IMG/VR virus record: IMGVR_UViG_3300010210_000044
Coordinates: 1 to 34,177 of that record
Reading direction: 5' to 3' (one strand)
From: a virus
Length of the DNA: 34,177 bases
In this document: positions 4,349-31,800 of the stretch, piece by piece
Layout of the letters: each line of letters opens with the position of its first letter
Numbering within the stretch: position 1 is the stretch's first letter
Program-made: the position numbers and the translations under genes
The notes under the pieces: model-generated
The model's database searches: none
What the model was told of the DNA's origin: nothing
Seen by the model: the letters and a program-made list of their open reading frames with translations, nothing else

Positions 4349-4645
4349 TCAGTCTCCGTTGAGGAACACGGCCGGGCTGCCGGTGGCGTTTGAGGAACCG
4401 CAGGCGATGGAATCACCCACCCGAGCCCAGGCGCGGCCATTGACGAACACGGTCGGCGATCCGCTGGCCTGGGTGCTGGCGTGGGTTTCGGGGATCGCCG
4501 GGCAGGTGTGGGGCTGCCACGGGTCGCCCACCCGGTGGGCACCGAGGCCATTGGCGAAGACGGTGAGCGATGCGCCGGCATTGGCGCGCCGCGGCCAACA
4601 GCCGTGACCGGTGCATCTGTCTGTGAGGCGGACGGCGGCGGGCAT
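4349..4645 (-). CDS. PAAR-repeat tail-spike tip protein
   Basis: 98 residues starting MPAAVRLTDRCTGHGCWP, with AGGA about 9 bases upstream of ATG 4645; a longer upstream reading would overlap gene V and is rejected. The sequence holds repeated PAAR-type turns: SLTVFANGLGAHRVGD, SPTVFVNGRAWARVGDSIACGSSN and SPAVFLNGD, with Cys and His residues (CTGHGC, HTCPA) suited to metal binding at a cone tip. PAAR proteins cap the membrane-piercing spike of contractile tails and T6SS. Placed directly after gene V (the spike), it is the expected tip of the V trimer. Family recognition is strong. Confidence 0.88.
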   Translation of the reverse strand: MPAAVRLTDRCTGHGCWPRRANAGASLTVFANGLGAHRVGDPWQPHTCPAIPETHASTQASGSPTVFVNGRAWARVGDSIACGSSNATGSPAVFLNGD

Positions 4646-4656
4646 GGCGGCTGGTC

Positions 4657-5151
4657 CTATGGGTTCAGGTCGATGCGATCGGCCTGTAGCTCCAGATGAT
4701 CGGGCGTCATGACGACGTGCGATGTTGCGCCCACACGCAGGGTTGCCTTGTCCGGCTCCAAGATCAGTTCGGTCTCTCCGACGCGCAGCACGATCTTGTG
4801 CGCGGCCTGGATGAAGCGTTCGCCGCCCCGGTCGTGGGGGGCTGGGTTGGCGTCTGACCAGCCGCCGGGGGTGATCAAGCCTTGCGCGGGGTCTCCGGTC
4901 GGGCTGACCACCGTCACGCGCTCGCCAACGGTGGGCGGGTCCCAGTCCTTGATGTCGCCGGCCCTTTGAACCCACGGGATGTCGCGGGATGGCAGGCCGT
5001 CCATGTCCACGGTGGCGACGCCGCGCGCATAGTCCACGCCGGTGATACGGCCCTCGCGCACAAGGTTCCTCACCCGGCGATCAAGGCTTTCGATGGCCGC
5101 TTCCAGCTCGGCGAAGCGCCGCGATACGGCGCGGAAATAGGCGTCGCTCAT
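4657..5151 (-). CDS. V: Baseplate spike protein V
   Basis: 164 residues. The N-terminal helix (ELEAAIESLDRRVRNLVREG) is followed by the OB-fold signature RITGVDYARGVATVDMDGLPS, then DIPWVQRAGDIKDWDPPTVGERV and SPTGDPAQGLITPG, and a C-terminal repeating beta region (IVLRVGETELILEPDKATLRV, HLELQADRIDLNP) expected to form the triple-stranded spike. This is P2 gpV architecture. The ATG overlaps the stop of the preceding unknown gene (ATGA), and the PAAR tip gene follows 11 bases downstream. Confidence 0.92.
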   Translation of the reverse strand: MSDAYFRAVSRRFAELEAAIESLDRRVRNLVREGRITGVDYARGVATVDMDGLPSRDIPWVQRAGDIKDWDPPTVGERVTVVSPTGDPAQGLITPGGWSDANPAPHDRGGERFIQAAHKIVLRVGETELILEPDKATLRVGATSHVVMTPDHLELQADRIDLNP

Positions 5152-5855
5152 GAATCCGTGACCACCGTTTCAAGGGAGTCTGCGACCGTCTGCGGGTCGT
5201 CCATCTCGTGCCCCAGGGCGGCGCCGGCGTCGTGTTCCCAGTGCGTCGGCGCGGGGGGCGTCTCGTCTTCGATTTCCGCCCGCAGCACGGCGGCCAGCGG
5301 CGCGGTTTCGGGCGTGGCCTCCAGTCTCGCCAGCAGCTCCGCCCAGATGCCGGAGGCCGCGCCCCCAGGCCGAGGGTCCGCCAGCGCGCGCACCTGGAGT
5401 TCAATCTGTCGGCCCGCGAACCGCAGACCCTGGTCGGTCGAGGCGCCGCGCACGGTGCGGACGGTGAGGACCTCCGTGACCAGAGCGCGCCATAGCCGCG
5501 ACCACGGGTCGGTCGGGTCCATCAACGCCCGCCGGATTTGACGATCCAGCAGGTCTAGAGTGCTCTCCATGCCGGCATCGGTGGCCGGGATCACCCAATC
5601 GCCACCGGGTTGCATCTGCGCCGTCACGGCACTTTCGATCACCAGCGAGAACGACGGCAGGCCGGACAACAGGTCGCCGTTGCGCGGGCTGGTCTCGCCG
5701 TCGTCGGTGTAGACCGACAGGAACGGTCGGCGCTCATCGCGCGCCGCCACGTCAATGGGCGGGATGGCGGAATCACGCACGGCGTCCCCCGCCCAGGTGC
5801 GACCGCGCAGGGCGGCCACCGTGACGATGCGCAGCGCCAGACGAGACAGGCTCAT
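5148..5855 (-). CDS. Phage protein, candidate tail terminator or neck protein
   Basis: 235 residues. The N-terminus SLSRLALRIVTVAALRGRTWAG, then DERRPFLSVYTDDGE and FSLVIESAV, with later DQGLRFAGRQIELQVRALADPRPGG, has the beta/alpha pattern of tail-completion proteins (a gpU-like or DUF3168-like fold: short strand, YTDD, variable loop, then ARQIELTV strand). Its position between the head-tail connector genes and baseplate gene V fits a tail terminator. Family identity is uncertain; the Asp/Glu-rich C-terminus is unassigned. It starts 3 bases after the previous gene and ends with an ATGA overlap to V. Confidence 0.65.
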   Translation of the reverse strand: MSLSRLALRIVTVAALRGRTWAGDAVRDSAIPPIDVAARDERRPFLSVYTDDGETSPRNGDLLSGLPSFSLVIESAVTAQMQPGGDWVIPATDAGMESTLDLLDRQIRRALMDPTDPWSRLWRALVTEVLTVRTVRGASTDQGLRFAGRQIELQVRALADPRPGGAASGIWAELLARLEATPETAPLAAVLRAEIEDETPPAPTHWEHDAGAALGHEMDDPQTVADSLETVVTDS

Positions 5856-10821: not shown

Positions 10822-12875
10822 TACCGCCGTCTCCACTTTGCGCGCCGCGCGGCTCGGTCTGCTGTCCGGTCTGTCGCCCGCTCTGTCGCCCGCTCTGGCG
10901 ACGGTGGGGGCGGCGCCGGTTGCGTGGCCGGGGCCTGCGGGGAAGGTTCCGTCGGCGCCGGGTCGCGGGGTCGCGCCGCCACCCTGGGCGGTCTGTCCAG
11001 CTTCACCGGCAGCGAGAGCCGGGCGGCCAGCCCGTAAACGAAGCAGTCCAGCGCCTCGTTGCGAGCGTCTGCCTCCCGCTTTCGCCACACCCGAACCGGG
11101 GTGCTGCCCTTGAGCTCGGTCGCGGCTTGTTCGCTGGTGAGCTGGTCGAAGTAATCCGCGCTCAACCCCTCGGCGGGGAAGTGAACCGCCCGGGGCGTCG
11201 GCCCGTCGCCGTCGAGGGGGATTTCAAGGCTCGCCGCGACGTAATCCTTTCCAGTGTCCACGCCGATCACATACAGCCGGTCGCCGCTGTTCTTTGTGCG
11301 GCTCGGTGTCTTGGGCCAGATCAGCCGGTTGCCGGCCATGCCCTTGCCGGCGTAGACCCGCCGCCGACGCCGTGCCCGACAGAAGGCGTGCACCATCTCG
11401 CCCCGGTGCCCGCCGCTATCGATGCAGCCGGCCTGAGCCGTCAGGGTGCGACCGTCCACCGTGTGCACGGGCTCTAGGATCAGGGCGTCCAGCCGGTCCC
11501 AGACGTCCTTTTTCGCCGTGTCGCCGTTCAGCACCTCGTGGCGCAGGACCCAGATTTCTTCGTCAGGCCCGAACCCCTGAAAGGTCACCTCGATGCGGTC
11601 GTCCTGGGTGTCGGCGCCGAACACCACCAGCCGCACCGCCTCGGGCGCCGACAGGTGGGTGTAGGGCTCGCACCGCTCGGCCAGGGCCGCCGGGTCCAGG
11701 CGCTCGACCTTTTCCTTCCAGACCTCCGCCAGCGCGGTGTTGATGAACTTGCGCATCAGCTCGGGTTTTTTGCGTGACCCGAGGTATTCTTTCACTACGT
11801 CCGCCAGCTCGTGGCGGGTGCTGTACAGCTTCGAAACCTGGAACCCCGCGTGCCCGTCGTAGGGGGCGAGGGCGCCGCAGGTTGGGCACATGGCCCGGCC
11901 CTGATCATCCCAGACCGAGGGCCGCCAATCCTGGCCGCAACACCGGAAGGGCCGCGTCTGCCGCCAGCCGTGATCGGGGGCCTCGGCCAGGGCGCGCAAC
12001 GCCCGGATCCGCTCCGACTCGCTCCAGCCGGCCCCGCAGGCCTCGCAGTGGTAGCGCACCGTATGCGGCAGGTGGTTGCCGTTTTCGTCCTTGTCCCAGA
12101 GCACCGTTTCCGGCGACCACCGCAGGATCTGGGCGTGGCCACAGTGCGGGCAGGCGACGAAGCATCGCCGCTGGTCGCTTTTCTCGTACTCTCGCCAGAT
12201 CCGGCTCGTGCTCTCGTCCGAGGGCGAGCACACCCGGATGTTTTTCTTCCTCCGCCGGAAGGTGGACGACCGCTCTTCGGCCAACGCCAGCGGGTCACCC
12301 ATGCCGCCCGCGTCTGCCGGGTACAGGTCGATCTCGTCGGCCAGCACGATCCGCTTGGGGCGGCTGGCGAGATTGACCGGGCTGTTCGCGCCGACAAAGT
12401 CCAGGGTGCCGCCGGGGTATTCCTTGTGCGTGATCGTGACCCCGGAATCGCGCGCCTTGCTGTCCGGAATCAGGCTCCGCAAGACCTCCATGGCCTCACG
12501 GGTGGGGGCGAACCGTTCCTTGCTGAAGCTCTCCGCCAGTTGCTGTGTCGGTTGCACGAACAGGATGGAGGCCGGGTCTTGGTGAATGAAATACCCGCAT
12601 GCGTTCACGAGCATCTCGGACTTGATGATCTGCGTACAGGCCACCATCGTGACGATCTGGGTGTGCCGATCCGTGATCGCCTTCATCGGCCCATAGGCCA
12701 CCGGCACCCGTAGTGTGCTCCAGCGGCCCGGGTTGGCGCTGTTCTGTCGCGCGATGACCCGGTAGGAATCGGCCCACTCAACCAGATTTAGTTTCGGCGG
12801 TGGCTTCAGCGCCTCCGCCCTGGCCTTCCGTAGCGTCGTCTTCAGACGCGAACTGTCCATCGGCGGTAAGTGCAT
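10821..12875 (-). CDS. A: Terminase large subunit, lambda GpA family
   Basis: 684 residues. Near residue 20 comes KPPPKLNLVEWADSYRVIA, then a degenerate Walker A region (ACTQIIKSEML, near residue 80) and the Walker B RIVLADEIDLYPADAG near residue 180. Zinc-binding Cys pairs follow (CPHCG, CEACG, CPTCG). The nuclease part has the metal-binding start VFGADTQDDRIEVTFQGFG and later ALDCFVYGLAA. It packages DNA and cuts at cos with the small subunit. The start overlaps the end of Nu1 by 98 bases (an alternative at Met6, 12860), an unusually long overlap here. The C-terminal 60 residues are Pro- and Arg-rich. Confidence 0.95.
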   Translation of the reverse strand: MHLPPMDSSRLKTTLRKARAEALKPPPKLNLVEWADSYRVIARQNSANPGRWSTLRVPVAYGPMKAITDRHTQIVTMVACTQIIKSEMLVNACGYFIHQDPASILFVQPTQQLAESFSKERFAPTREAMEVLRSLIPDSKARDSGVTITHKEYPGGTLDFVGANSPVNLASRPKRIVLADEIDLYPADAGGMGDPLALAEERSSTFRRRKKNIRVCSPSDESTSRIWREYEKSDQRRCFVACPHCGHAQILRWSPETVLWDKDENGNHLPHTVRYHCEACGAGWSESERIRALRALAEAPDHGWRQTRPFRCCGQDWRPSVWDDQGRAMCPTCGALAPYDGHAGFQVSKLYSTRHELADVVKEYLGSRKKPELMRKFINTALAEVWKEKVERLDPAALAERCEPYTHLSAPEAVRLVVFGADTQDDRIEVTFQGFGPDEEIWVLRHEVLNGDTAKKDVWDRLDALILEPVHTVDGRTLTAQAGCIDSGGHRGEMVHAFCRARRRRRVYAGKGMAGNRLIWPKTPSRTKNSGDRLYVIGVDTGKDYVAASLEIPLDGDGPTPRAVHFPAEGLSADYFDQLTSEQAATELKGSTPVRVWRKREADARNEALDCFVYGLAARLSLPVKLDRPPRVAARPRDPAPTEPSPQAPATQPAPPPPSPERATERATDRTADRAARRAKWRRR

Positions 12876-13332
12876 CGAGGATTTCCGTCACCTTGGTGCC
12901 CAGCAGTTCCTCGATCTCCAGCACGGACAGGTGCTCCAGATCCGGGGCCATCTCTCCCGGCATCGCCATGAGGTTGGCGCGGACGGTGGCGTACTCCTCG
13001 GCCACCAGCCGACCGACGGTGTCCACCTCGACCAGTTCGCCACGGCGCAAGGCGAGGTCCATTTCCGCAAGAGCCGCCTCCGCCGCCGTCTTGCGGCGCC
13101 GGGCCTCCTCCATATCCATGGCGTTGGTGTCGCCCGTCGCGGCGAGGGCTGCCTGTTCCCCGCGCCAGCGGATCACGTCGGCGGTGTTGTATTGACCGGG
13201 TTTGCCGCGTGATCCCTTGCGGGCCACGGGCATGCCCTTGCGCTCCCAGGCTCGGATGGTCATGGCCGAGACGCCCATGATCGCCGCCAAGTCCGTCTGG
13301 CTGACGACGCGCCCGTCTACCTTCTCGACCAT
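12778..13332 (-). CDS. Terminase small subunit, Nu1 family
   Basis: 184 residues. The N-terminal winged helix-turn-helix VSQTDLAAIMGVSAMTIRAWERKGMPVARKGSRGKPGQYNTADVIRW is the Nu1 DNA-binding domain that recognises cosB. It is followed by a charged helix MEEARRRKTAAEAALAEMDLALRRGELVEVDTVGRLV and an acidic C-terminus. Lambda gpNu1 has 181 residues, the same size. The gene heads the packaging module; the region upstream (13333-13609) is where a cos site would be expected, though I cannot point to it. Confidence 0.93.
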   Translation of the reverse strand: MVEKVDGRVVSQTDLAAIMGVSAMTIRAWERKGMPVARKGSRGKPGQYNTADVIRWRGEQAALAATGDTNAMDMEEARRRKTAAEAALAEMDLALRRGELVEVDTVGRLVAEEYATVRANLMAMPGEMAPDLEHLSVLEIEELLGTKVTEILDALTADGQFASEDDATEGQGGGAEATAETKSG

Positions 13333-14583: not shown

Positions 14584-16173
14584 TCACGACCCCGCCGGGG
14601 GGGCTGTCTCGTTCTGCATGGCACGCAGCAGGGCGGCAAGCGCGTCTCTTGTGGTTTGCGTCTTCCAGTGCGTCGGACCCAGGGCGGTTTCCTGTATGGC
14701 TAAGGCCCGCTCCAGCTTTGAGCGGGCGTCGTCGAGGCGGCCTTGATCGCGATCCACAGCGCCCAGTGCGTTAAGGGTCGCGGCCACATGCGGATGCGCC
14801 GAACCCAGGGCGGCCTCGTTGATGGCCAAGGCCCGCTCCAGCTTTGACCGGGCGTCGTCGAGGCGGCCTCGCGCGTGATTCACACCGCCCAGGGCGTGAA
14901 GGGTCGCGGCCACATCCGGATGCGCCGGACCCAGGGCGGTTTCTCGTATGGCCAAGACCCGCTCCAGCGTTGAGCGGGCGGCGTCGAGGCGGCCTTGATT
15001 GTGATTCACAACGCCCAGATTGTGAAGGATCGCGGCCACCTCCGGATGCGTCGGACCCAGGGCATCCTCGGTGATGGCCAAGACCCGCTCCAGCTTTGAT
15101 CGGGCGTCGTCGAGGCGGCCTTGATCGCGATCCACAACGCCCAGGTCGTGAAGGGTTGTGGCCACCTGCGGATGCGCCGGACCCAGGGCATCCTCGTAGA
15201 GGGCCAAGGCCCGCTCCAGCCTCGCCCGGGCGTCGTCAAGATGCCCCATCGCGTGATGCAGGCGTCCCAAAGCGTGCAGGGAGGCTGCGACGTCGGGGTG
15301 TTGCTGGCCCAAGGCGCGCTCCCGGAGGGTCAGACCGTGCATCTGCACCTCCAGCGCCTCCGGATAAAGCCCCAAAGACTCATAGGAAACCGCAAGGTTG
15401 AACTCGGTCCGTGCGGTGTTCAGGCTGTTGCGCCCGAAGAGACGGCGGGCCCCCGCGACGGCGCGCTCACAAAGAACATGGGCGGCGGCGTAGTGGCCCT
15501 TCGAATGCTCTTCGTTCGCAAGGCGGGTGATTGTCGCAATCGTCTCAAAAGAGGCATCGCCGTTTTCATCCGCCGACACAGAGCCCAGGGCCAAGGCGCC
15601 ATGCGCGATCGCCGCTCGGATATCCCCGTGGTCGATGCTGTCCGCGGCCCGTTTGGCTTCGATGTCCGCCAGGATCCACCGCGCCATGTTTAGCGACGGA
15701 TCGCAGGCAAGGGCACTCTGGGCGTAATATGCCGACAGGGTCATATGGGCCGGATCATCCGGCGCGTGGGCCAGATAATATTCTGCAAGCCAAAGGGCTG
15801 CCGTGCCCAGAGGCGGCAAGGCCTCGTTCAGCATGGCGTCGAGGAGGGTCAGGCCGTCCGAGACGGCGTTCGGATCGGCGTCCGCCGCGTCCGCCATGAC
15901 CAGGGCTTCGGCGGGCACGCGCTGGCGGAGGCCGTCAATGGCGGCGGACACCTCGCTCTGGCGCGTTTTCAGGGCCGCGATGCGCTTTTTCCGCGCCTTT
16001 ATCTCTTCGCGCAGCTCCGCATTCTTTTTTTCCTTATCCTTGAAGCCGAGACGTCCCACCCCGAAAACCAACAGGGTCAGAGTCACGACGGCGGCCATGA
16101 ATCCAATCAACTCGACGAGGACGCCATATTGGCCCCCCTCCAGGGCATCAATCAGGGCTTGGGTCAGGTCCAT
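14584..16173 (-). CDS. Membrane-anchored coiled-coil protein with seven kinesin-light-chain-type TPR units
   Basis: 529 residues from MDLTQALIDALEGGQYG; the start at 16173 is preferred over 16218 because the preceding gene ends at 16184. Residues 19-42 form a hydrophobic membrane segment (VELIGFMAAVVTLTLLVFGVG). Residues 45-90 are a charged coiled coil (ELREEIKARKKRIAALKTRQ). From about residue 235 seven units of 42 residues follow, each like GRLDDARSKLERALAINEAALG-(P/S)AHPHVAATLNALG. This is the Fis1/kinesin-light-chain TPR type, a protein-binding scaffold. No enzyme domain is visible. The array would face the cytoplasm if the N-terminal segment is the only anchor. Near-identical 126-bp DNA repeats make it prone to unit gain and loss. 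Confidence 0.8.
   Translation of the reverse strand: MDLTQALIDALEGGQYGVLVELIGFMAAVVTLTLLVFGVGRLGFKDKEKKNAELREEIKARKKRIAALKTRQSEVSAAIDGLRQRVPAEALVMADAADADPNAVSDGLTLLDAMLNEALPPLGTAALWLAEYYLAHAPDDPAHMTLSAYYAQSALACDPSLNMARWILADIEAKRAADSIDHGDIRAAIAHGALALGSVSADENGDASFETIATITRLANEEHSKGHYAAAHVLCERAVAGARRLFGRNSLNTARTEFNLAVSYESLGLYPEALEVQMHGLTLRERALGQQHPDVAASLHALGRLHHAMGHLDDARARLERALALYEDALGPAHPQVATTLHDLGVVDRDQGRLDDARSKLERVLAITEDALGPTHPEVAAILHNLGVVNHNQGRLDAARSTLERVLAIRETALGPAHPDVAATLHALGGVNHARGRLDDARSKLERALAINEAALGSAHPHVAATLNALGAVDRDQGRLDDARSKLERALAIQETALGPTHWKTQTTRDALAALLRAMQNETAPPAGS
14660..15410 (-). repeat. Tandem 126-bp coding repeats (TPR units)
   Basis: About six tandem copies of a 126-bp unit encode the 42-residue TPR units of this gene. 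Most copies share the phrase AAGGCCCGCTCCAGCTTTGA and a CGGGCGTCGTCGAGGCGGCC-like segment on the plus strand. The same unit recurs in the gene at 17276-18442, so the two loci can recombine with each other. Confidence 0.8.
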
Positions 16174-16183
16174 GGGCTCGCCC

Positions 16184-16723
16184 TCATCCGCCGTTCGAGG
16201 AGTCGCGTGGGCCGGCACCGGGAGGCTCGGCCAGCAGCGCGGCGAGGCGGTCGAGCCGGTCGCAAGTCTTCGCCCGGTTCCCGGTGTCGGCGTCGGGGGC
16301 GTCGGGGGGAAGGCGGCGCAGGGCCGCGCTCACCCGTTTGCAGGCCAGGGCCACCGGCGGGCCGGCCTCTGACAGCAGCGTTTCCAGCAGGGGGATGGCC
16401 TTTTCCACATTGCCATCCTGCCGTTCCCAGGCTGCCTGTTCGAGCGCGGTTTCGGGCAGGCGATCGCGCAACCCTGCCTCGGTTCGCTCCAGCGCCGCCA
16501 CGGCGGCTTCCAGGGGGGGGATCGTCCGATTGAGCGCGGCGCGCTCCTTGGTATGCTGCGCGATGGCCGCCTCAAGCTCTGCCATCCCCGGGCGGGCCTT
16601 GCGCCAGACCCAAGCCAGCCCCCACAGGATCATGAGCCCGACAACAAGCCACACCCCAAGCTGCACCATCGAACTCATGGCGTGCAGCCCGTTCAATATA
16701 TCGATCAGCCATTGCACCGACAT
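16184..16723 (-). CDS. Small membrane/coiled-coil protein, truncated paralogue of the neighbouring TPR protein
   Basis: 179 residues starting MSVQWLIDILNGLHAM, with a strong AGGAGG 7 bases before ATG 16723. Residues 20-39 are a membrane helix (VQLGVWLVVGLMILWGLAWV), followed by a coiled coil (AELEAAIAQHTKERAALNRTI, VAALERTEAGLRDRLPETAL) and one TPR-like helical pair (AAWERQDGNVEKAIPLLETLLSEAGPPVALACKRV). The order membrane helix, coiled coil, (R/Q)xLPxxAL is also that of the next gene, so the two are paralogues and this one lacks the TPR array. The genes are 10 bases apart and form an operon; the proteins may form a mixed membrane complex. Function unknown. Confidence 0.72.
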   Translation of the reverse strand: MSVQWLIDILNGLHAMSSMVQLGVWLVVGLMILWGLAWVWRKARPGMAELEAAIAQHTKERAALNRTIPPLEAAVAALERTEAGLRDRLPETALEQAAWERQDGNVEKAIPLLETLLSEAGPPVALACKRVSAALRRLPPDAPDADTGNRAKTCDRLDRLAALLAEPPGAGPRDSSNGG

Positions 16724-17275
16724 CCAGACGCCTCCTGCGCACGCCTCCAACGCACCCAGCCCGATCATTCATGATCACGCCAGCGTCGTCCAGACTCTTG
16801 GATGCAAACCCCCGCGTGTTGAGAGGGGGCGGGGCAGCGCCCCGCAGGAGCCACACGACACAGCTCCGCCATGCGCTTCCGCAATGCTGGGTTGCCGCTA
16901 TACGCGCCCGAGGTGCTGGGATGCCGCCGCACGCGTTCAAGATGCTGGGCTGCTGCCCAGACCCGCCTGGAGGCGATGCCTCCAGACCTCCCTTTTTTTA
17001 AAAAATGAAAGGCCAAGGCGGAAGGGATGACGCATGGGGAGAGCGCTCGCTCGGGATGACAGGGGGTGCTTTTGCCCCCTCCCAACCTCCCCCATGAATG
17101 GGGGAGGAGTCTTGGCTGGCTTTTCCACACCCTCCGCCCTCTCCCTTTTTAAAAATCCAAGGACTGGGGGTCTGGGGCCTCAGGCCCCAGCGGGGAGCGG
17201 GGCAGAGCCCCGCATCTCTTAAAGAACGGGGCGTGGGGCAGAGCCCCGCATCATCCCGAGATCCTGACGCCGCCG
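16724..17275. repeat. Non-coding spacer rich in hairpin repeats between the two TPR loci
   Basis: No supported gene. It contains the hairpins CTGGGC-TGCT-GCCCAG (16945-16960) and CTGGAGGC-GAT-GCCTCCAG (16967-16985) followed by a T run at 16993-16999 (terminator-like on the plus strand). Further hairpins are CTGGGGCCT-CAGGCCCCAG (17172-17190) and two copies of GGGGCAGAGCCCC (17199-17211, 17235-17247), with a related copy near 16835. CTCGGGATGA repeat cores lie near 17050. Several short frames here are products of the repeats. On the minus strand the 17140-17190 hairpin followed by ATTTTTA may end transcription of the gene at 17276-18442. Confidence 0.6.
16967..16999 (+). terminator. Hairpin plus T-run, terminator-like
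   Basis: CTGGAGGC, loop GAT, GCCTCCAG, then seven bases and TTTTTTT. On the plus strand it resembles an intrinsic terminator with a slightly long gap between stem and T run. No plus-strand gene ends just before it, so it may be part of a dispersed repeat rather than a working terminator for a local gene. Confidence 0.4.
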
Positions 17276-18442
17276 TCACGACCCCGCCGGGGGGGCTGTC
17301 TCGTTCTGCATGGCACGCAGCAGGTCGGCAAGCGCGTCTTCTATGGCTTGGGTGTACGGATGCGCCGGACCCAGGGCGGTTTCCTGTATGGCTAAGGCCC
17401 GCTCCAGCTTTGATCGGGCGTCGTCGAGGCGACCTTGATCGTAATCCACACGGCCCAGGGCGTGAAGGGTCGCGGCATCGGACGGATGCGTTGGACCCAG
17501 GGCGGCTTCCCGTATGACCAAGGCCCGCTCCAGCTTTGAGCGGGCGTCGTCGGGGCGGCCTTGCTGGTGATCCACAGCGCCCAGATTGTGCAGGGTCGCG
17601 GCCACATCCGGATGTGCCGGACCCAGGGCGGCCTCATTGATGGCCAAGGCCCGCTCCAGCTTTGAGCGGGCGTCGTCGAGGCGACCTTGATCGTGATCCA
17701 AAAAGCCCAGCACGTAAAGGGTCGCGGCCACAGACGAATGCGCCGGACCCAGGGCGGCCTCATTGATGGCCAAGGCCCGCTCAAGATGCGTTCTGGCGTC
17801 GTCGAAGCGGCCTAGATCGAGATCCACAAGGCCCAGCACTTGAAGGGTCACGGCCACAGACGGATGCGCCGGACCCAGGGCGGTTTCCTGTATGGCCAAG
17901 GCCCGCTCAAGATGCGTTCTGGCGTTGTCGAAGCGGCCTTGCTCGCGATCCAGAGCGCCCAGCACGGAAAGGGTCGCGGCCACCTCCGGATGCGTCGCAC
18001 CGAAATGGTGTGATTGCAGGGCCATGATCGTCTGATAGAGCCCATAGGCTTCTAAGAGTTCGCCCTTTGCATGGTGGCCCTCCGCCAGACGACGCAGGAT
18101 GTCCACGATTTCTAGCGTTTCGAGCTGCAAAACATCACGAAGGGTTTTGGCGATTTGATCCGGCGACTGTGCCGCGACATCGCGCGTATCGATTAAAGAC
18201 CCCGTGGTATCGTACTGTGATGGATCCGTATCCCGCCAATCGAGGCCGCGCAGATCGGCATGGCGGAAGTCACGGGCGGATTCCAAGCCGGTCAGGCGCA
18301 CAAGGCCGGCCACCGTTGCGTCATCGGCCATCCGAACGCGGCGCAGGAGGTCGAAGTTCGGGCGGAAGGGCCGCACGGTCGGAGTCTGCTCCTCGCCGTC
18401 AGCCGTGCCGTTCGATTCAGTGTCCGGTTTGGTCATCGGCAT
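17276..18442 (-). CDS. TPR protein with pentapeptide-like N-terminal segment, six 42-residue units
   Basis: 388 residues, starting MPMTKPDTESNG with GGAG 7 bases upstream; the start overlaps the end of the preceding gene by 26 bases. Residues 25-85 contain RPNFDLLRRVRMADDATVAGLVRLTGLESARDFRHADLRGLDWRDTD, where FRHADLRGLDWRDTD resembles a short pentapeptide-repeat module. A helical linker follows (IAKTLRDVLQLETLEIVDILRRLAEG). Then six TPR units such as GRFDDARTHLERALAINEAALGPAH. The C-terminal residues ALLRAMQNETAPPAGS-like end (LLRAMQNETAPPAGS) is identical to that of the TPR gene at 14584. There is no membrane helix, so it is probably soluble. Function unknown; it is a likely adaptor for the 303-residue partner encoded just upstream. 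Confidence 0.8.
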   Translation of the reverse strand: MPMTKPDTESNGTADGEEQTPTVRPFRPNFDLLRRVRMADDATVAGLVRLTGLESARDFRHADLRGLDWRDTDPSQYDTTGSLIDTRDVAAQSPDQIAKTLRDVLQLETLEIVDILRRLAEGHHAKGELLEAYGLYQTIMALQSHHFGATHPEVAATLSVLGALDREQGRFDNARTHLERALAIQETALGPAHPSVAVTLQVLGLVDLDLGRFDDARTHLERALAINEAALGPAHSSVAATLYVLGFLDHDQGRLDDARSKLERALAINEAALGPAHPDVAATLHNLGAVDHQQGRPDDARSKLERALVIREAALGPTHPSDAATLHALGRVDYDQGRLDDARSKLERALAIQETALGPAHPYTQAIEDALADLLRAMQNETAPPAGS

Positions 18443-19506: not shown

Positions 19507-20349
19507 CTAAATGGACCGGATAGACACGTGTTCGAGGTCTAATTGCACCGCAGAAAGATACTCTTCTGCGTTTAAATCCTCAAGTTTGACAATCAGATGA
19601 CCACCAATTGTGATCCCATCAGGCGGTTTGATTTTGCTCAACCAACCTTTCGCCTCATGTCTCACCAGATCGCGCTCTTCGTCATCTGCATCCTCCGTGA
19701 GGATGAAGTAGAATGTCACCTTGTACTCTTGCGCAGACCAGCAGGGATCGGCGCTAACCCGAATCATTTGGAGTGCCCTGAGTGCAGCGCCCTCGTCCGA
19801 GCCCTTATTGTGCCTGGACACAATACGCTGCCTGAGCGGTTCCAGGGCGCGTGAAAAGGCGTCCGGGAAGGCGAACCGTTTCCGCTTCCGCGCAATGGCA
19901 CCGGCAAACGTTTGCCGATCCCGATCTGTAAAGCAGCCGCATTCTCGTTTCGCGCGGGCAATCACGCGCTTGGAAACCGTTGCCACGCGATCCAAATCCG
20001 CCGCGAGCCCGTGTTCGGCAGCGCCTGGTACATACGCAAACTGTGGCCGCCGACCAAGGTCTACCTCTTTAAGTGTTGTTTTATCCAGCTGGACTAGCGG
20101 GCAAATTTCAACAAAAGGACGCTTCTCTGCGTCTCTCAAAAGATCGCATGTCTGCGATAAAATGACGATGCCTTCCACCGGTTGAAACACGTGAACGAAC
20201 GACATCCCGGCATACTCCTCGGACGCCTCGACGTCTGCAATGTCTGCGCCCACCGCGAAATCCGTAATATCGCGAGTGAAATCACCTTGTGTCCACTGCT
20301 CCAATATGTCGTTTACAGATTGCGAGTCTAAGGCCGGGATGGTCGTCAC
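19507..20349 (-). CDS. Unknown protein with SQTCD motif, third gene of AT-richer cassette
   Basis: 280 residues from a GTG at 20349, one base after the preceding TAA, with AAGAGG upstream; an ATG at 20397 has no ribosome site and overlaps the HTH gene. The sequence starts VTTIPALDSQSVNDILEQWTQGDF. Then come GIVILSQTCDLLRDAEKRPFVEICP near residue 60, RPQFAYVPGAAEHGLAADLDRVATVSK, ARAKRECGCFTDRDRQTFAGAIARKRKRFAFPDAF, and GSDEGAALRALQMIRV. The conserved-looking [IL]SQTCD core and the DRxTFAxAxARKRxRFAFPD helix suggest a distinct domain family of unknown function, which I cannot name. GC content is visibly lower than in neighbouring phage genes. Confidence 0.75.
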   Translation of the reverse strand: MTTIPALDSQSVNDILEQWTQGDFTRDITDFAVGADIADVEASEEYAGMSFVHVFQPVEGIVILSQTCDLLRDAEKRPFVEICPLVQLDKTTLKEVDLGRRPQFAYVPGAAEHGLAADLDRVATVSKRVIARAKRECGCFTDRDRQTFAGAIARKRKRFAFPDAFSRALEPLRQRIVSRHNKGSDEGAALRALQMIRVSADPCWSAQEYKVTFYFILTEDADDEERDLVRHEAKGWLSKIKPPDGITIGGHLIVKLEDLNAEEYLSAVQLDLEHVSIRSI

Positions 20350-20350
20350 C

Positions 20351-21028
20351 TTACGCCCTCTTGCGGGTCGCGGGCCGAACGACACGGCCAGTGACATTCT
20401 GTTCTAGCACGGGCTCGTGCTTCGCATCCATTTGCGCAACCAAACCCCAGTTTGACATCTCACGTCTTTTCGACATGCCTGACGTTTGGCCCTGAAATTT
20501 TTTGGCGGCCTCCACCGCTGCGTCGTAATCGCCACGGCTGAGTAGATCCATAAGAAGCGCCCCATCTTCCACCGAAGACAGCAAAAGGGCACGATTGGCC
20601 GCAGCGTTTCCTCTGCTCATCTGCTGAACCGTCGCTGCGATACGAGACAAGCGCTCGTGATTGGCGCTGGTAATCGGCTCCCCACTTGCCCAGTTGTGGA
20701 CAGACCGCCGGCTCGTGGAGAGCAGTCCCGCAATTTGATCCCACGTCAAGCCGGTGTCTTTTCTCAGCGTGTTGACCACATCCGCGGCACGGTGTTCCTG
20801 GGTTTGTTGTTGCGTCCTAATAATAGGGGTAGGGTAGCTGACAGAGGTTGGCTCAGCGACCCACGCGTGCCTCATCGTGTCCGCTGGACATTCATGATGA
20901 TTCATCGTTCCAACAGCGAGCAGACCCATCGAAAAAGCACGGGCAACCGGTCGGGCCACGCTTTTTCCCGCAGACGTTCCTTGGTTTCCGTCATACGTCC
21001 TCGGGTGTGAGGGCGGCATCATATTCAT
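20351..21028 (-). CDS. Helix-turn-helix regulator of the three-gene cassette
   Basis: 225 residues from ATG 21028 (MNMMPPSHPRTYDG), chosen because it overlaps the upstream stop by ATGA. Residues 1-75 are variable. Residues 85-140 contain a helix-turn-helix: VVNTLRKDTGLTWDQIAGLLSTSRRSVHNWASGEPITSANHERLSRIAATVQQM, like RsaL/XRE-type proteins with WASG after the recognition helix. The C-terminal part (LLSSVEDGALLMDLLSRGDYDAAVEAAKKF) is helical, and the end is basic. It probably represses its own operon by binding the palindrome at 21831-21857. The partner genes overlap it on both sides. Confidence 0.78.
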   Translation of the reverse strand: MNMMPPSHPRTYDGNQGTSAGKSVARPVARAFSMGLLAVGTMNHHECPADTMRHAWVAEPTSVSYPTPIIRTQQQTQEHRAADVVNTLRKDTGLTWDQIAGLLSTSRRSVHNWASGEPITSANHERLSRIAATVQQMSRGNAAANRALLLSSVEDGALLMDLLSRGDYDAAVEAAKKFQGQTSGMSKRREMSNWGLVAQMDAKHEPVLEQNVTGRVVRPATRKRA

Positions 21029-21807
21029 GGGGCGCCTCCATAAGTCCGTAAGAACGTGTCCGTGACAGCCCACCTGAAGAACGCATAGCATTTCTGAGCA
21101 AGAAAATCAGCCTGATCGGCGACTGCATCTGCTTCGAATCGCGTCCGGTCACCGACCGTGAAGGCATCGATATCGAGGACCCATGATGGGGTCGGCATCG
21201 GCTCAACGACTGCGGGATCAAGGGTCGCTTGAGGAGGCAAACGACCCCACTTCACGAGAAGAGAGTAGCCGTCATCATCTATTTGGCTCTCTGTAAACAC
21301 ATGAGACGACGTTTCACCCATCCACGTGTCGAGGGTGCCGAGGATCTCTGGAATAACCATGTCTTTGATGTTTATGTTCGTTGCATCACGCACCCGATCT
21401 ATATATCTGATTCCAACTCGCTCCATCCGGGACGGCTTCACCGTACGCTGAAAGGCCGTGAGGATGTAACGCAGCCGCTCGACAAAGTCTGTCCTGCTCT
21501 TGTACACCTTGGTTTGAAGCGCGATGAAGTCTGGTGCCAACGACACCTGAAACTGTTCATCATCCGAAAAACGCCAAATAGGGACGCTCGTTTCGGACGT
21601 GCCCCCGTTAGGGTCGATGCGCATTGTTTTAATGCGATCTTCTTTAAGATCAGGGAAGCGATCACGAATGGCCTCTTGAAACGGCCCTACGAACGCGGGG
21701 TCGTTAATGGACATGATCATCGGAAATTTGACCTGGGCGAGTACGCACTCCAAGGGCGCATCCGCCAAGGGAACCTCCTTAGGTGCTGGACCGGTCAGCG
21801 GATTCAT
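21025..21807 (-). CDS. TIGR04255-family protein, first gene of three-gene cassette
   Basis: 260 residues. The pattern VPLADAPLECVLAQVKFPMIMSINDPAFVGPFQEAIRDRFPDLKED, then WRFSDDEQFQVSLAPDFIALQTKVYKSRTDFVERLRYILTAFQ and the hallmark RMERVGIRYIDRVRDA near residue 150 match the sporadically distributed TIGR04255 family, whose molecular function is not established. Members occur in scattered, mobile contexts. The AAAAGGGG ribosome site precedes the ATG. It opens an operon of three overlapping genes behind a palindromic operator. The family call rests on pattern memory; context suggests a mobile accessory or conflict-type module. Confidence 0.78.
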   Translation of the reverse strand: MNPLTGPAPKEVPLADAPLECVLAQVKFPMIMSINDPAFVGPFQEAIRDRFPDLKEDRIKTMRIDPNGGTSETSVPIWRFSDDEQFQVSLAPDFIALQTKVYKSRTDFVERLRYILTAFQRTVKPSRMERVGIRYIDRVRDATNINIKDMVIPEILGTLDTWMGETSSHVFTESQIDDDGYSLLVKWGRLPPQATLDPAVVEPMPTPSWVLDIDAFTVGDRTRFEADAVADQADFLAQKCYAFFRWAVTDTFLRTYGGAP

Positions 21808-21830
21808 GTGTGGCCCCTTTTCTCTCCGAG

Positions 21831-21857
21831 CCTCACTTTACGATATGTGAAGTGAGG
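21831..21857. promoter_or_regulatory. Palindromic operator upstream of the three-gene cassette
   Basis: CCTCACTT (21831-21838) and AAGTGAGG (21850-21857) form a perfect inverted repeat around 11 bases, and a further AAGTG half-site follows at 21862-21866. The site lies 24 bases upstream of the first start codon, in an AT-richer gap, as expected of an operator overlapping a promoter. The HTH protein encoded in the operon is the obvious candidate ligand. Confidence 0.6.
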
Positions 21858-21943
21858 CGTGAAGTGGAATGGGTGGATAGCGCATTGCAGGGTGCGGTCA
21901 CAAGGACGATATGGATCGGGCGCGGTCTGTTTCCGACGCAGCC

Positions 21944-22696
21944 TCACCCCTCCCGTTCTACGCCGAGCCGGTGTGGGTCGATGTGCCAGCGTTTGAGGGG
22001 TTGGTCCGAGAGCAGGGCCGTCAGCGCATCCAGTCCTTCAACGAAGCGGATCCAGGTGTCGCGGGCGGCGCGGCGCTCCTTGTCGCTGGGGTCCGGGTAG
22101 ACCTTGCAATAGGGGCCGTCGGCGGGCGCTAGATCCAGCAGCGTTGCCCCAACCCCGGCTGAGGGTGTCGCGGCGGGGCGGGCCGGGTCCACGGGCTGGC
22201 GCACCCGGTCGTGGGTTTCGACGCGTGGATCATAGACGCGGGCCTTGCCATTACGGGCGCGGATCGGGCTCCAGGCGGGCGGGCCCAGGTCCCACACCGG
22301 CGGGTCTCCGGCTTCGGCGTGTTGGATCACCAGCGCCAGCGCCTGAGACATGGACCCCAGCACGCGGCAATGGACCAGGGCGGCGTCATCGTCCAAGCGC
22401 GCGACCACGCCAGTGTCCGCCGCCATCCTCCCAAAGCCAGAGGTGTCTACCCGGCAGCCCAAACGCGCAATCTCGGCGATGCTGGCGCAGCCGTCGGTCG
22501 AGACCCGGCGGCCCGACGCGTGGCCGGGCGTGGGGGCCTCCAGGATGGCGCGGGCGCACTGCTGGCCCCACACCCACCGCGCCAGCCGCCACGCGGTGAT
22601 CACGGGGCGGGAGGCCGGCCCCATGACCGGGTGCGCCGTGTCCGCGTGTCCTGTGTCTGCGTTCGGGCGATGGATCGGAGGCGCACACAGCGTCAC
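21944..22696 (-). CDS. Last gene of the early operon, unknown; position resembles a late regulator
   Basis: 250 residues from GTG 22696, which overlaps the stop of the ASCH gene (GTGA); a 47-residue longer reading is rejected. Seen in it: PVITAWRLARWVWGQQCARAILEAP, SIAEIARLGCRVDTSGFGRMAADTG, VHCRVLGSMSQALALVIQHAEAGDPPVWDLG and a C-terminal KVYPDPSDKERRAARDTWIRFVEGLDAL. Helical, basic N-terminal parts could bind DNA or RNA. In lambda-like maps the gene at the distal end of the early operon is the late activator Q, so a late-gene regulator is possible; this is purely positional. No enzyme motif seen. Confidence 0.65.
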   Translation of the reverse strand: MTLCAPPIHRPNADTGHADTAHPVMGPASRPVITAWRLARWVWGQQCARAILEAPTPGHASGRRVSTDGCASIAEIARLGCRVDTSGFGRMAADTGVVARLDDDAALVHCRVLGSMSQALALVIQHAEAGDPPVWDLGPPAWSPIRARNGKARVYDPRVETHDRVRQPVDPARPAATPSAGVGATLLDLAPADGPYCKVYPDPSDKERRAARDTWIRFVEGLDALTALLSDQPLKRWHIDPHRLGVEREG

Positions 22697-23322
22697 GGCG
22701 CCACCTCTGCTGCCGACGACGGATCGCCAGCATGCGCCATCCTGGTTTGCAGGACATCGCACGCGGCCTCTAGGGCCGGGTTTGGCGTCTCGGGTTCGGG
22801 GGGCGCGTCCGGATCAATGCCCGCCGCGGCCAGAGCCTCCAGCAGGATCGCGCGACCCTCCCCCGACACATCCGGATCAAAGAACGACAGCCGGCCCCGG
22901 CATGGCGTGAACGGCAGTGCCACCGGGTCGCGCAACACAAAGCCGTATGGGCCTTTAAACCAGCGGCTTTTGCGCGCCTCCACGGTCACAGGCGAGGGCC
23001 CCCGTTGGCCATACTCTCCGCGCGTGTATCCGCTCTTGGCGCGGCGCTGCTCCTCGCTCACAGAGGGCACGCACGCGATGATGCGCACCGCGCCGATAAT
23101 GCCGCCGCGCCGCATGGTGGGGGTGACGAACCGCCGCACCCGGCGATCATCCTGCAACCCCGCATGGACCAAGACCCAGCCCGACGTGAACGAAAGCCAT
23201 GTCCGGTTTTCGATGTCTTTGACCCGCCCTTCGTCATCGCCATGGATGATCCACTGCGCATGCGGCGGACGGATCGACAGCGCCCGGGGGAGGCGGTTCG
23301 GCGTGTTTTGAGACTGCGTCAT
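22693..23322 (-). CDS. ASCH-domain protein
   Basis: 209 residues starting MTQSQNTPNRLPRALSIRPP at ATG 23322, overlapping the previous stop by ATGA. The motif ALSIRPPHAQWIIHG, then RVKDIENRTW, GWVLVHAGL, GGIIGAVRIIACV and RWFKGPYGFVLRDP matches phage ASCH domains (a PUA-like beta barrel that binds RNA or modified bases), with the invariant ENR and GWxLVHA strand. Such proteins are common in phage early operons near replication genes. The exact target is not known; a long acidic Pro-rich C-terminal tail is added. Confidence 0.88.
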   Translation of the reverse strand: MTQSQNTPNRLPRALSIRPPHAQWIIHGDDEGRVKDIENRTWLSFTSGWVLVHAGLQDDRRVRRFVTPTMRRGGIIGAVRIIACVPSVSEEQRRAKSGYTRGEYGQRGPSPVTVEARKSRWFKGPYGFVLRDPVALPFTPCRGRLSFFDPDVSGEGRAILLEALAAAGIDPDAPPEPETPNPALEAACDVLQTRMAHAGDPSSAAEVAP

Positions 23323-30309: not shown

Positions 30310-30527
30310 CACGCGGCCTCCTCGGGGGAACACGGCGGGAAGAAGTCATCGGGTAGGAGGTCAATGCCCCGTTCGCGTGCGACTTCGAGAACGCGTGCTT
30401 GCTGTCGCGCAGGGATGTACCCGCGCTGAGACCAGCCGCTCACGGTCGTTGGGTTTCGATGCCCCAGCGCAGCGGCCAGGGATGAAACGCCACCGAATTT
30501 GGAAATCACATGCTCGGCTTGAGTCAT
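30309..30527 (-). CDS. Cro-like HTH repressor
   Basis: 72 residues starting MTQAEHVISKFGGVSSLAAALGHRNPTTVSGWSQRGYIPARQQARVLEVARERGIDLLPDDFF. The pattern FGGVxxLAxALGHxxPTTVxGWxxRGxIPAR and DFFP-type C-terminus are those of the small Cro/YdaS-like phage repressors of alphaproteobacteria. The AAGGAGGG ribosome site precedes the ATG. It opens the minus-strand early operon, facing the plus-strand CI gene across an operator region. Confidence 0.9.
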   Translation of the reverse strand: MTQAEHVISKFGGVSSLAAALGHRNPTTVSGWSQRGYIPARQQARVLEVARERGIDLLPDDFFPPCSPEEAA

Positions 30528-30543
30528 GAAAGCGCCCTCCTTC

Positions 30544-30580
30544 TACGCGAAAATATACGCGCAACGCGTAACGTGTCAAC
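30544..30580 (-). promoter_or_regulatory. Early (PR-like) promoter and CI/Cro operator
   Basis: On the minus strand TTGACA (30579-30574) and TATATT (30557-30552) are spaced by 16 bases, a near-consensus promoter reading into the Cro-like gene. The spacer holds TACGCG-CAA-CGCGTA (30556-30570), a palindrome, and a second TACGCG lies at 30544. The 12-mer AACGCGTAACGT (30563-30574) recurs exactly at 31834-31845, where the second plus-strand operon begins, so the same repressor probably controls both. Confidence 0.75.
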
Positions 30581-30617
30581 GTGGAATTTGAAAGGCACTC
30601 TTGGCGACGATGGTCCT

Positions 30618-31382
30618 ATGGAACAAGTGCCCAAAACCACGACCGGCAGCGCGCTTCGTGCGCTCTTAGCCCGAGCCGATGTCACGCTGACCCAGCTTGC
30701 GCGGGAGGCCGGCTACAAAGGCCCGTCTGGCGCGCAGCGTTACATCGAAGACGGATATTCCAAGCCTTTGCCGCCTCGTATTGCAGAGGCCGCGATGCAA
30801 TTGCTGGTGGGAAAAGGTGCGCCGCCCGTTACAGAGCAAGACATTCTGGATTTGTCTGACCGGATCCAGCAGCACATTCGGGCGCGTGGAATCGCCAAGC
30901 CTCCGCCGACATCGTCCGAATCTGTATCAACCTTGCCGAGCCATAATGTTGACATGGCTCGCATCGAGACAGATGGTATTGTCGGTGCGCGAGATACTCC
31001 GGTATACGCAAGCGCCGTTGGCGGGGCGCGAGGGCATATGATCGTCGATTTCGAACCGATTGAATGGGTGCGGCGCCCCGCGCCACTGGAAGGGGTAAAA
31101 GGGGGCTTTGCCGTCTATGTGCAGGGGGAGTCCATGGACCCAGCCTATGAGCATGGTGACATGGCCCTGATTCACCCGCACCAGCCGGTTCGGCAGGGCG
31201 ATACGGTTCTCATCCTATTGACCGACGGCAACGGCTCGCATGAGGCCATGATTAAACGTTTGGTGGTCGCGACAGACGATGTTGTGCGCCTCGAACAGCA
31301 CAAACCGCACAAGACCTTTGAGTTGCCGCGCGCCGATGTGTCGAAAATTCTAAAGGTTGTCGGGAAGTACAATCGAAGGTGA
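30618..31382 (+). CDS. CI-type repressor, S24 peptidase family
   Basis: 254 residues starting MEQVPKTTTGSALRALLAR; no good ribosome site is seen. The N-terminal HTH-like part SALRALLARADVTLTQLAREAGYKGPSGAQRYIED is followed by a linker and the peptidase-like C-terminal domain. That domain contains VYVQGESMDPAYEHGDMALIHP with the catalytic Ser (GESMDP), QGDTVLILLTDGNGSHEAMIKRL with the Lys, and an Ala-Val-Gly-Gly-type cleavage zone near TPVYASAVGGARGH. RecA-stimulated self-cleavage would induce the prophage. It faces the Cro-like gene. Confidence 0.9.
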   Translation: MEQVPKTTTGSALRALLARADVTLTQLAREAGYKGPSGAQRYIEDGYSKPLPPRIAEAAMQLLVGKGAPPVTEQDILDLSDRIQQHIRARGIAKPPPTSSESVSTLPSHNVDMARIETDGIVGARDTPVYASAVGGARGHMIVDFEPIEWVRRPAPLEGVKGGFAVYVQGESMDPAYEHGDMALIHPHQPVRQGDTVLILLTDGNGSHEAMIKRLVVATDDVVRLEQHKPHKTFELPRADVSKILKVVGKYNRR

Positions 31383-31800
31383 TGTTGCGGCGCGTGATCG
31401 GGTGCGGTGCGGGCCGTCTGGCTACCTGATTGAGGTCAACGGAGCGCACCACGAAAACAGACGCCGCTTCACGCTGGCCCATGAAATTGCGCACTTCATG
31501 ATGCACCGCGACCAAATCGGCGACGGCATTGAGGACGGCGCCCTGTACCGAAGCGAAGGGACCAGCGACCACATGGAGCGGCAAGCCAACTTCCAGGCCG
31601 CGATCATGCTCATGCCGGCGCCGCTCGTCAGGGACGCGTTCGCCAAGCACAGCCGCTCCCCTCACATCCTGGCGCGTGACTTTAAGGTCTCAGAAAGCGC
31701 GATGCGCATTCGGCTGAAGAACTGCGGCTCGGCGCCTGATCCCCGTTTCAATCTAAGCCAACCCCGCCGACCGGGGTGGGCGGGGTTTTTCGTGTCATAG
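31357..31800 (+). CDS. ImmA/IrrE-type metalloprotease, compact form
   Basis: 147 residues if started at TTG 31357, which overlaps the CI gene by 26 bases (or 132 from GTG 31402). The zinc motif HEIAH is seen in RRRFTLAHEIAHFMMHRDQIGDGI, with the family's downstream DHMERQANFQAAIMLMPAPLV. A stop lies in frame at 31351, so the usual N-terminal lobe of about 50 residues is missing. ImmA-like proteases cleave repressors; next to CI it could degrade it or a Cro-like protein. Its end overlaps a terminator. Confidence 0.78.
   Translation: MSGSTIEGDVAARDRVRCGPSGYLIEVNGAHHENRRRFTLAHEIAHFMMHRDQIGDGIEDGALYRSEGTSDHMERQANFQAAIMLMPAPLVRDAFAKHSRSPHILARDFKVSESAMRIRLKNCGSAPDPRFNLSQPRRPGWAGFFVS
31761..31790 (+). 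terminator. Rho-independent terminator overlapping the 3' end of the ImmA-like gene
   Basis: ACCCCGCC (31761-31768), a 10-base loop, GGCGGGGT (31779-31786) and TTTTT (31786-31790). It lies within the last codons of the gene, before TAG at 31798-31800, and so probably ends the CI-ImmA transcript. The palindrome lies partly in coding sequence (RRPGWAGFF). Confidence 0.85.

Follow-up and report, generated by a model that had tools for sequence, protein, structure and literature searches.

A three-gene TIGR04255 cassette carried by a temperate phage, a possible toxin-antitoxin-type module with exchangeable partners

The cassette and its phage

The window, that is the whole stretch of DNA analysed here (34,177 nucleotides of a 34 kb virus record), is laid out like the genome of a temperate tailed phage. 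Three genes on its minus strand, 21807-19507 (-), follow one another in the order A (TIGR04255), B (HTH) and C (the 'SQTCD' protein), and the features of the locus are as follows.

21830..21858, no strand assigned: perfect 9-bp inverted repeat GCCTCACTT-N11-AAGTGAGGC, a possible operator, 22 bp ahead of the ATG of A
21025..21807, minus strand: gene A, TIGR04255 family protein of 260 aa, proposed controller/sensor (NCBIfam TIGR04255 match, AlphaFold2 model)
20351..21028, minus strand: gene B, HTH protein of 225 aa, proposed antitoxin/autoregulator (ATGA overlap with A, conserved HTH core, weak HTH model matches)
20624..20776, minus strand: HTH core of B, about residues 85-135, with W96, R107, W113 and G116 invariant (family alignment)
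19507..20349, minus strand: gene C, 'SQTCD' protein of 280 aa with a GTG start, proposed toxin/effector (downstream of A in 29/31 loci)
19867..20322, minus strand: predicted MazF/CcdB-like domain of C, residues 10-161 (AlphaFold2, Foldseek, VIA, hhalign)
19510..19866, minus strand: C-terminal domain of C, residues 162-280, without assigned relative (predicted secondary structure; barely covered by the fold search)

A and B meet in a 4-base ATGA overlap, and the GTG at which C starts lies one base past the stop of B, just as an earlier sequence-only reading of this DNA had it when it described three overlapping or abutting genes. Another possible start for C, an ATG at 20397, would give a protein of 296 aa; a start near 20349 agrees better with the family alignment. 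The same reading had held the cassette to be lower in GC than the phage around it, and this too is borne out: GC is 0.545-0.561 across 19.5-22 kb (54-56% in the cassette genes) as against 0.65-0.71 in the flanks.

A relative of the window phage (L133), with 88% protein identity at 12778-13332, aligns with the window in pieces of which the longer ones, in the late genes and around 25.5-26.1 kb, are 76-87% identical as DNA. From about 14.2 to 25.5 kb of the window no similarity to this relative could be detected, which places the cassette inside a variable interval of the phage. Among annotated phage records no relative of C was found and the DNA at 8-28 kb of the window had no match; probing for sibling phages with the upstream neighbour of the cassette (21944-22762) likewise recovered no relatives.

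Two large nephrocystin-3-type TPR proteins, unusual for a phage, adjoin the cassette within the same variable interval, at 14584-16218 (-) and 17276-18442 (-) (TPR_12 E 6e-87 and 1e-69), and between their genes lies one for a smaller protein, 16184-16768 (-), that matched no family. Elsewhere in the window, at 30510-31800 (+), a gene for an IrrE/ImmA-type M78 peptidase (PF06114 E 1.6e-18) comes immediately after one for a CI/LexA-like repressor, an arrangement that suggests peptidase-controlled lysogeny.

Conservation and spread of the three genes

A tblastn search of plasmids with C returned eight records, and a genome scan added two further loci. At the eight loci inspected closely (from Chroococcidiopsis, Sphingomonas, Sinorhizobium, Rhizobium, Kocuria, Paenarthrobacter, Roholtiella and Nostoc), A and an HTH-family gene stand directly upstream of C in the same order. 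The order recurs in Klebsiella, Vibrio and Acinetobacter, where plasmids or phage contigs carry distant TIGR04255 matches (about 25% identity), and contigs from IMG/VR add loci L023-L025, L064 and L067. Taking all loci with enough upstream sequence, 31 in number with the window included and a few fetched twice, A precedes C in 29, nearly always with a recognised B in between; the two exceptions are fragments of C. The loci are spread across Alpha- and Gammaproteobacteria, Actinomycetota and Cyanobacteria, on plasmids, phages or prophages and chromosomes, and the carriers include conjugative or mobilizable plasmids as well as phage contigs. Co-occurrence of the three families in adjacent order, which the sequence-only reading had put forward as the check on its idea of a module, is thus clear, at 29/31 loci in four bacterial groups.

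At several loci it is C that has decayed. In one cyanobacterial locus (L073), C is split by a TnpB-type insertion, a TnpB/OrfB-type gene at 4508-5785, and also has an internal stop, with A and B intact. On a Rhodococcus plasmid (L029), a short and divergent C-like ORF (5439-5642, with GDVF..LVQHPCAL) lies behind an intact TIGR04255-HTH pair and is cut by an ISL3 element, and in a third case (L010) C is present as a pseudogene. The reverse, a clear loss of A beside an intact C, was not seen at any locus in this small sample. A PADLOC 2.0 search with all three proteins gave no hits, and the annotated A-B-C and TIGR04255 loci that we read showed no consistent defence-island context.

The TIGR04255 and HTH proteins

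The first gene had been called TIGR04255-like from its letters, and it is a clear member of that family: A scores 147.9 bits against the NCBIfam model, for which the curated cut-off is 30, with residues 14-255 aligned to positions 2-250 of 252. The family is NCBIfam 'sporadTIGR04255', which we take to be without described function, and we found no mention of TIGR04255 in the open-licence papers searched. The AlphaFold2 model of A (pLDDT 85.8, pTM 0.85) is a two-repeat, saddle-shaped alpha/beta fold of about 250 residues. It has no clear relative in the PDB by Foldseek (E above 1e-3); the best VIA score, Z 7.8 to arginine kinase, and those that follow for TBP (6-7) are values also typical of unrelated models. 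One viral model of unknown function is matched at E 2e-7. The parallel with toxin-antitoxin-chaperone (TAC) systems drawn below would lead one to expect a SecB-like protein here, and by sequence this can be rejected, as A matches nothing in Pfam at E up to 1; SecB is also missing among the VIA rows listed for the predicted fold, an absence that excludes nothing.

For B, family models yield sub-threshold HTH matches only (best PRK10072, E 0.0012, and PF13384, E 0.0021), and it is the family alignment, with its core SGLTWDQLAxLFxVSRRSxHxWASG, that upholds the earlier call of an HTH in the middle gene. No similarity to MazE or CcdA was detected. Ahead of the HTH lies an N-terminal tail of about 75 residues. 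A clear transmembrane anchor in this tail was considered and rejected: hydropathy is variable and mostly low, with a maximum mean of 2.26 in one relative and 1.17 in the window.

Upstream of A, a perfect 8-bp palindrome had been reported from the sequence, and the repeat is indeed present and slightly better than described, having arms of 9 bp (P=0.005 in mononucleotide shuffles). As a family feature, however, a palindromic operator has to be rejected: the relatives do not share the window repeat, and among 20 other A-B-C loci an upstream palindrome with P<0.05 occurs in only two, with different sequences. Self-regulation of the operon is therefore still a guess.

A toxin-type fold predicted for the third protein

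Sequence searches agree with the earlier statement that the 'SQTCD' protein belongs to no nameable family, since C has no convincing match in Pfam, NCBIfam, PADLOC or PHROGs, and none to Pfam PemK (PF02452) at E up to 1. Its motifs run from a GD through a hydrophobic strand that ends in S/T-Q to a second strand, an order in which a resemblance to MazF/PemK was nevertheless seen by eye before any structure search. Three motifs are conserved in the N-terminal domain, namely W-x-Q-G-D, (S/T)-Q-x-C-D and R-x-A-F-P-D, and W19, Q21, G22, C68, D69, R158, A160 and P162 are near-invariant in the family.

Structure prediction for the first and third proteins, which the sequence-only reading had proposed, left A without a clear PDB relative and gave a likeness to MazF/CcdB for C. 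The AlphaFold2 model of C, built from seven sequences, has a pLDDT of 78.8 and a pTM of only 0.53. In a Foldseek search of the PDB with residues 10-161, ranks 1-6 are all MazF, at E-values of 3e-3 to 3e-2, none of which reaches 1e-3. VIA lists only MazF and CcdB in its 50 best rows for the same residues, with Z 7.8-10 for alignments of 92-115 residues, the top one at Z 10.0 with an rmsd of 3.0 over 106 residues. As a structure-independent test, an alignment of PemK/MazF proteins from cyanobacterial genomes was compared with the N-terminal domain of C by hhalign, giving P 1.1e-4 and a probability of 57% over 107 collinear columns; the controls (the C-terminal domain of C, TIGR04255 and the HTH family) all had P >= 0.06. 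Residues 10-161 of C are accordingly predicted to have the MazF/CcdB toxin fold.

The catalytic residues of MazF, on the other hand, are not retained. Arg24 and Thr47 are essential in SaMazF (PMC4041440). Aligned with the Arg, members of the C family have K, R, E, P or D, and none of those shown has a Thr at the other position. Because the active site residues of MazF are not conserved, C cannot be called an RNase on this evidence; as modelled, it is a toxin-type fold without the MazF active site.

It might be argued from this that C has no toxin function at all, and that A-B-C serves phage or plasmid physiology instead, such as the regulation of carrier genes; the MazF catalytic pair is absent, and a fold by itself does not establish function. 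Such a role would have to be squared with the presence of A-B-C on unrelated plasmids, phages and chromosomes, with the swapping of partners for ones with PIN or HEPN genes described in the next section, and with the finding that C is the gene found broken. We consider it very improbable.

Other operons headed by TIGR04255

TIGR04255 is present in 33/386 cyanobacterial genomes and in 0/14 control genomes. As this larger survey is confined to cyanobacterial genomes, the proportions of the partners found in it are not transferable to other phyla. The HTH protein and C follow TIGR04255 at about 9 cyanobacterial loci, by our own reading of the downstream genes, and a middle protein with a short homologue of C does so at 6-7 (short C versus C by hhalign, P 2.4e-12). 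At two loci the third gene encodes a HEPN protein (Pfam E 5e-8 and 4e-7) and at two others a PIN protein (Pfam E 7e-11 and 5e-6), and there are at least four further partner sets without a recognisable domain in the second or third gene. Uncharacterised operon types are seen at L076, L077, L082 and L090; at L091, L093, L096 and L100; at L083 and L086; and at L078, L080 and L081. Judged from sequence, these uncharacterised sets are candidate new antitoxin-effector pairs. Over all the TIGR04255 loci collected, cyanobacterial or not, the distance from TIGR04255 to the second gene is exactly -4 in 31/57 loci and within 16 bases in 54/57, the latter count coming from related sequences that are hence not independent. 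The membership of TIGR04255 in a module with the HTH and SQTCD proteins thus stands as far as recurrent order goes; the protein is not tied to that pair and has several exchangeable partner sets.

A TIGR04255 operon with a different set of partners, on a Rhizobium plasmid (L027, 1147-6129), lies just behind a multiubiquitin-ThiF-DUF6527 set, which looks like a defence-type neighbour.

The HEPN-containing sets allow the middle protein to be followed on its own. A search with the HEPN-class middle domain (around DEAFDKLKxLDxxWWLD) gave 11 hits without a detected TIGR04255, in flanks of only 1.5 kb, and in 11/11 the domain stands directly before a HEPN gene. Middle proteins of this class are 198 and 215 aa long with TIGR04255 as against mostly 110-167 aa alone, and the additional residues are at the N-terminus; among the stand-alone ORFs one reaches 221 aa, its start being uncertain. 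The PIN-class middle gene found no match in 117 genomes, an uninformative result with a query of only 79 aa. In the middle proteins of all classes the first 50 residues contain 22% Ser/Thr versus 12.5% in the rest, and are the richer part in 48/52 sequences, which again are related and not independent; at about 14% the N-terminus of B in the window is a weak example of such a Ser/Thr-rich tail. The sequences give TIGR04255 the appearance of something added to an antitoxin-toxin pair.

The cyanobacterial loci L136-L146 each have a HEPN gene with one for a small protein that carries a DEAxxKLxxLDxxWWLD-type domain, and no TIGR04255; they are candidate toxin-antitoxin pairs. The usual HEPN RNase motif is R-x4-6-H, and the HEPN proteins that we read have R-N-K-A-D-Y at this site. 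As the H is missing, these proteins are toxin-type by family and not proven nucleases.

These operons also bear on how labour might be divided among the three proteins. One could suppose that A is itself the antitoxin, inhibiting C directly, with B merely the transcription regulator of the operon; the HTH is the sole recognisable domain of B, and A is the constant member of the operon, as an inhibitor could be. Yet the A family also accompanies HEPN, PIN and other unrelated third genes, which would be odd for a direct inhibitor, and where A is absent the middle domain of the HEPN class still has HEPN beside it, an indication that the toxin is partnered by the middle protein itself. We regard a division of this kind as unlikely.

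The swapping of effectors behind one conserved component, together with a sporadic occurrence on phages and plasmids and a conserved Cys-Asp motif that MazF lacks, could also suit a defence module without a classical toxin-antitoxin pair, in which A would sense phage components, B would serve as adaptor and C would be an effector with a chemistry of its own at the S/T-Q-x-C-D site. Against this, PADLOC gives no match and the annotated loci that we read do not consistently lie in defence islands, and we think it quite unlikely.

A proposed three-component module

The reading that we prefer, and hold to be by a small measure probable, is that the cassette is a mobile three-component conflict module of toxin-antitoxin type, carried as cargo by a temperate phage. 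A toxin-antitoxin-like module had been proposed from the sequence; the predicted MazF/CcdB fold of C and the TIGR04255 operons that end in PIN or HEPN genes speak for it, while the palindrome, once part of the case, is not conserved. In the proposed mechanism C would be the effector, combining a MazF/CcdB-type toxin domain with a C-terminal domain of its own, and B, the middle protein with its HTH and N-terminal tail, would resemble an antitoxin and probably also act as autoregulator. A would be a third component acting via B, binding it, probably at the N-terminal tail, and holding the B-C complex inactive. A trigger, such as the product of an incoming phage or loss of the element, would withdraw A, upon which B would fail and C would stop growth. 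The carrier might benefit through superinfection exclusion or stable maintenance. We infer the toxicity of C, its neutralisation by B, the binding of A to B and the trigger.

A logic of this kind is familiar from TAC systems, in which a constant chaperone pairs with different toxin-antitoxin families and an extension of the antitoxin creates dependence on the chaperone (PMC5105189). This dependence module can be grafted onto other proteins, even N-terminally (PMC5105189), and in CmdTAC the chaperone also senses a phage capsid protein (PMC11618068). Like HigBA-SecB, MqsRA-SecB, HicAB-SecB and CmdTAC, the operons described here have three genes, one constant component and varied toxin-antitoxin partners, a middle or antitoxin protein with a terminal extension that accompanies the third component, and a plausible link to phage sensing. 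They differ in that A is not SecB by sequence and has a predicted fold that is a two-repeat saddle of about 250 residues, in that A is the first gene, and in that the middle protein bears its surplus region N-terminally. The resemblance to TAC, an analogy, is thus in logic only.

With MazEF, PemIK (Kid-Kis) and CcdAB the cassette shares the predicted MazF/CcdB fold of C, which has W-x-Q-G-D where MazF has RGD, and an HTH gene ahead of a toxin-like gene, as an antitoxin gene stands ahead of its toxin. In contrast to these systems, C has 280 aa and an extra domain, lacks the conserved catalytic Arg/Thr and has its own Q-x-C-D, there is an additional gene A, and B is an HTH protein without detected MazE or CcdA similarity. 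A compact co-directional operon, conserved order and overlaps, and mobility on plasmids and phages are features in common with type II toxin-antitoxin systems more generally. In the open-licence literature searched we found no description of TIGR04255 proteins leading exchangeable toxin-type operons.

In its widest form, which we put forward tentatively as possible, TIGR04255 would mark a class of tripartite toxin-antitoxin or defence systems, so far unrecognised and present in several phyla and on mobile elements: a saddle-fold protein other than SecB would govern antitoxin-effector pairs that can replace one another, with effectors of MazF-fold, short C, HEPN, PIN and several uncharacterised kinds, and the phage effector would have a MazF/CcdB fold with a new Q-x-C-D active site. 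If this is true, a family known as 'sporadically distributed' gains a role as the constant third component of toxin-antitoxin-type operons, these operons would parallel TAC while resting on a different protein, and several uncharacterised last genes of TIGR04255 operons would become candidate toxins.
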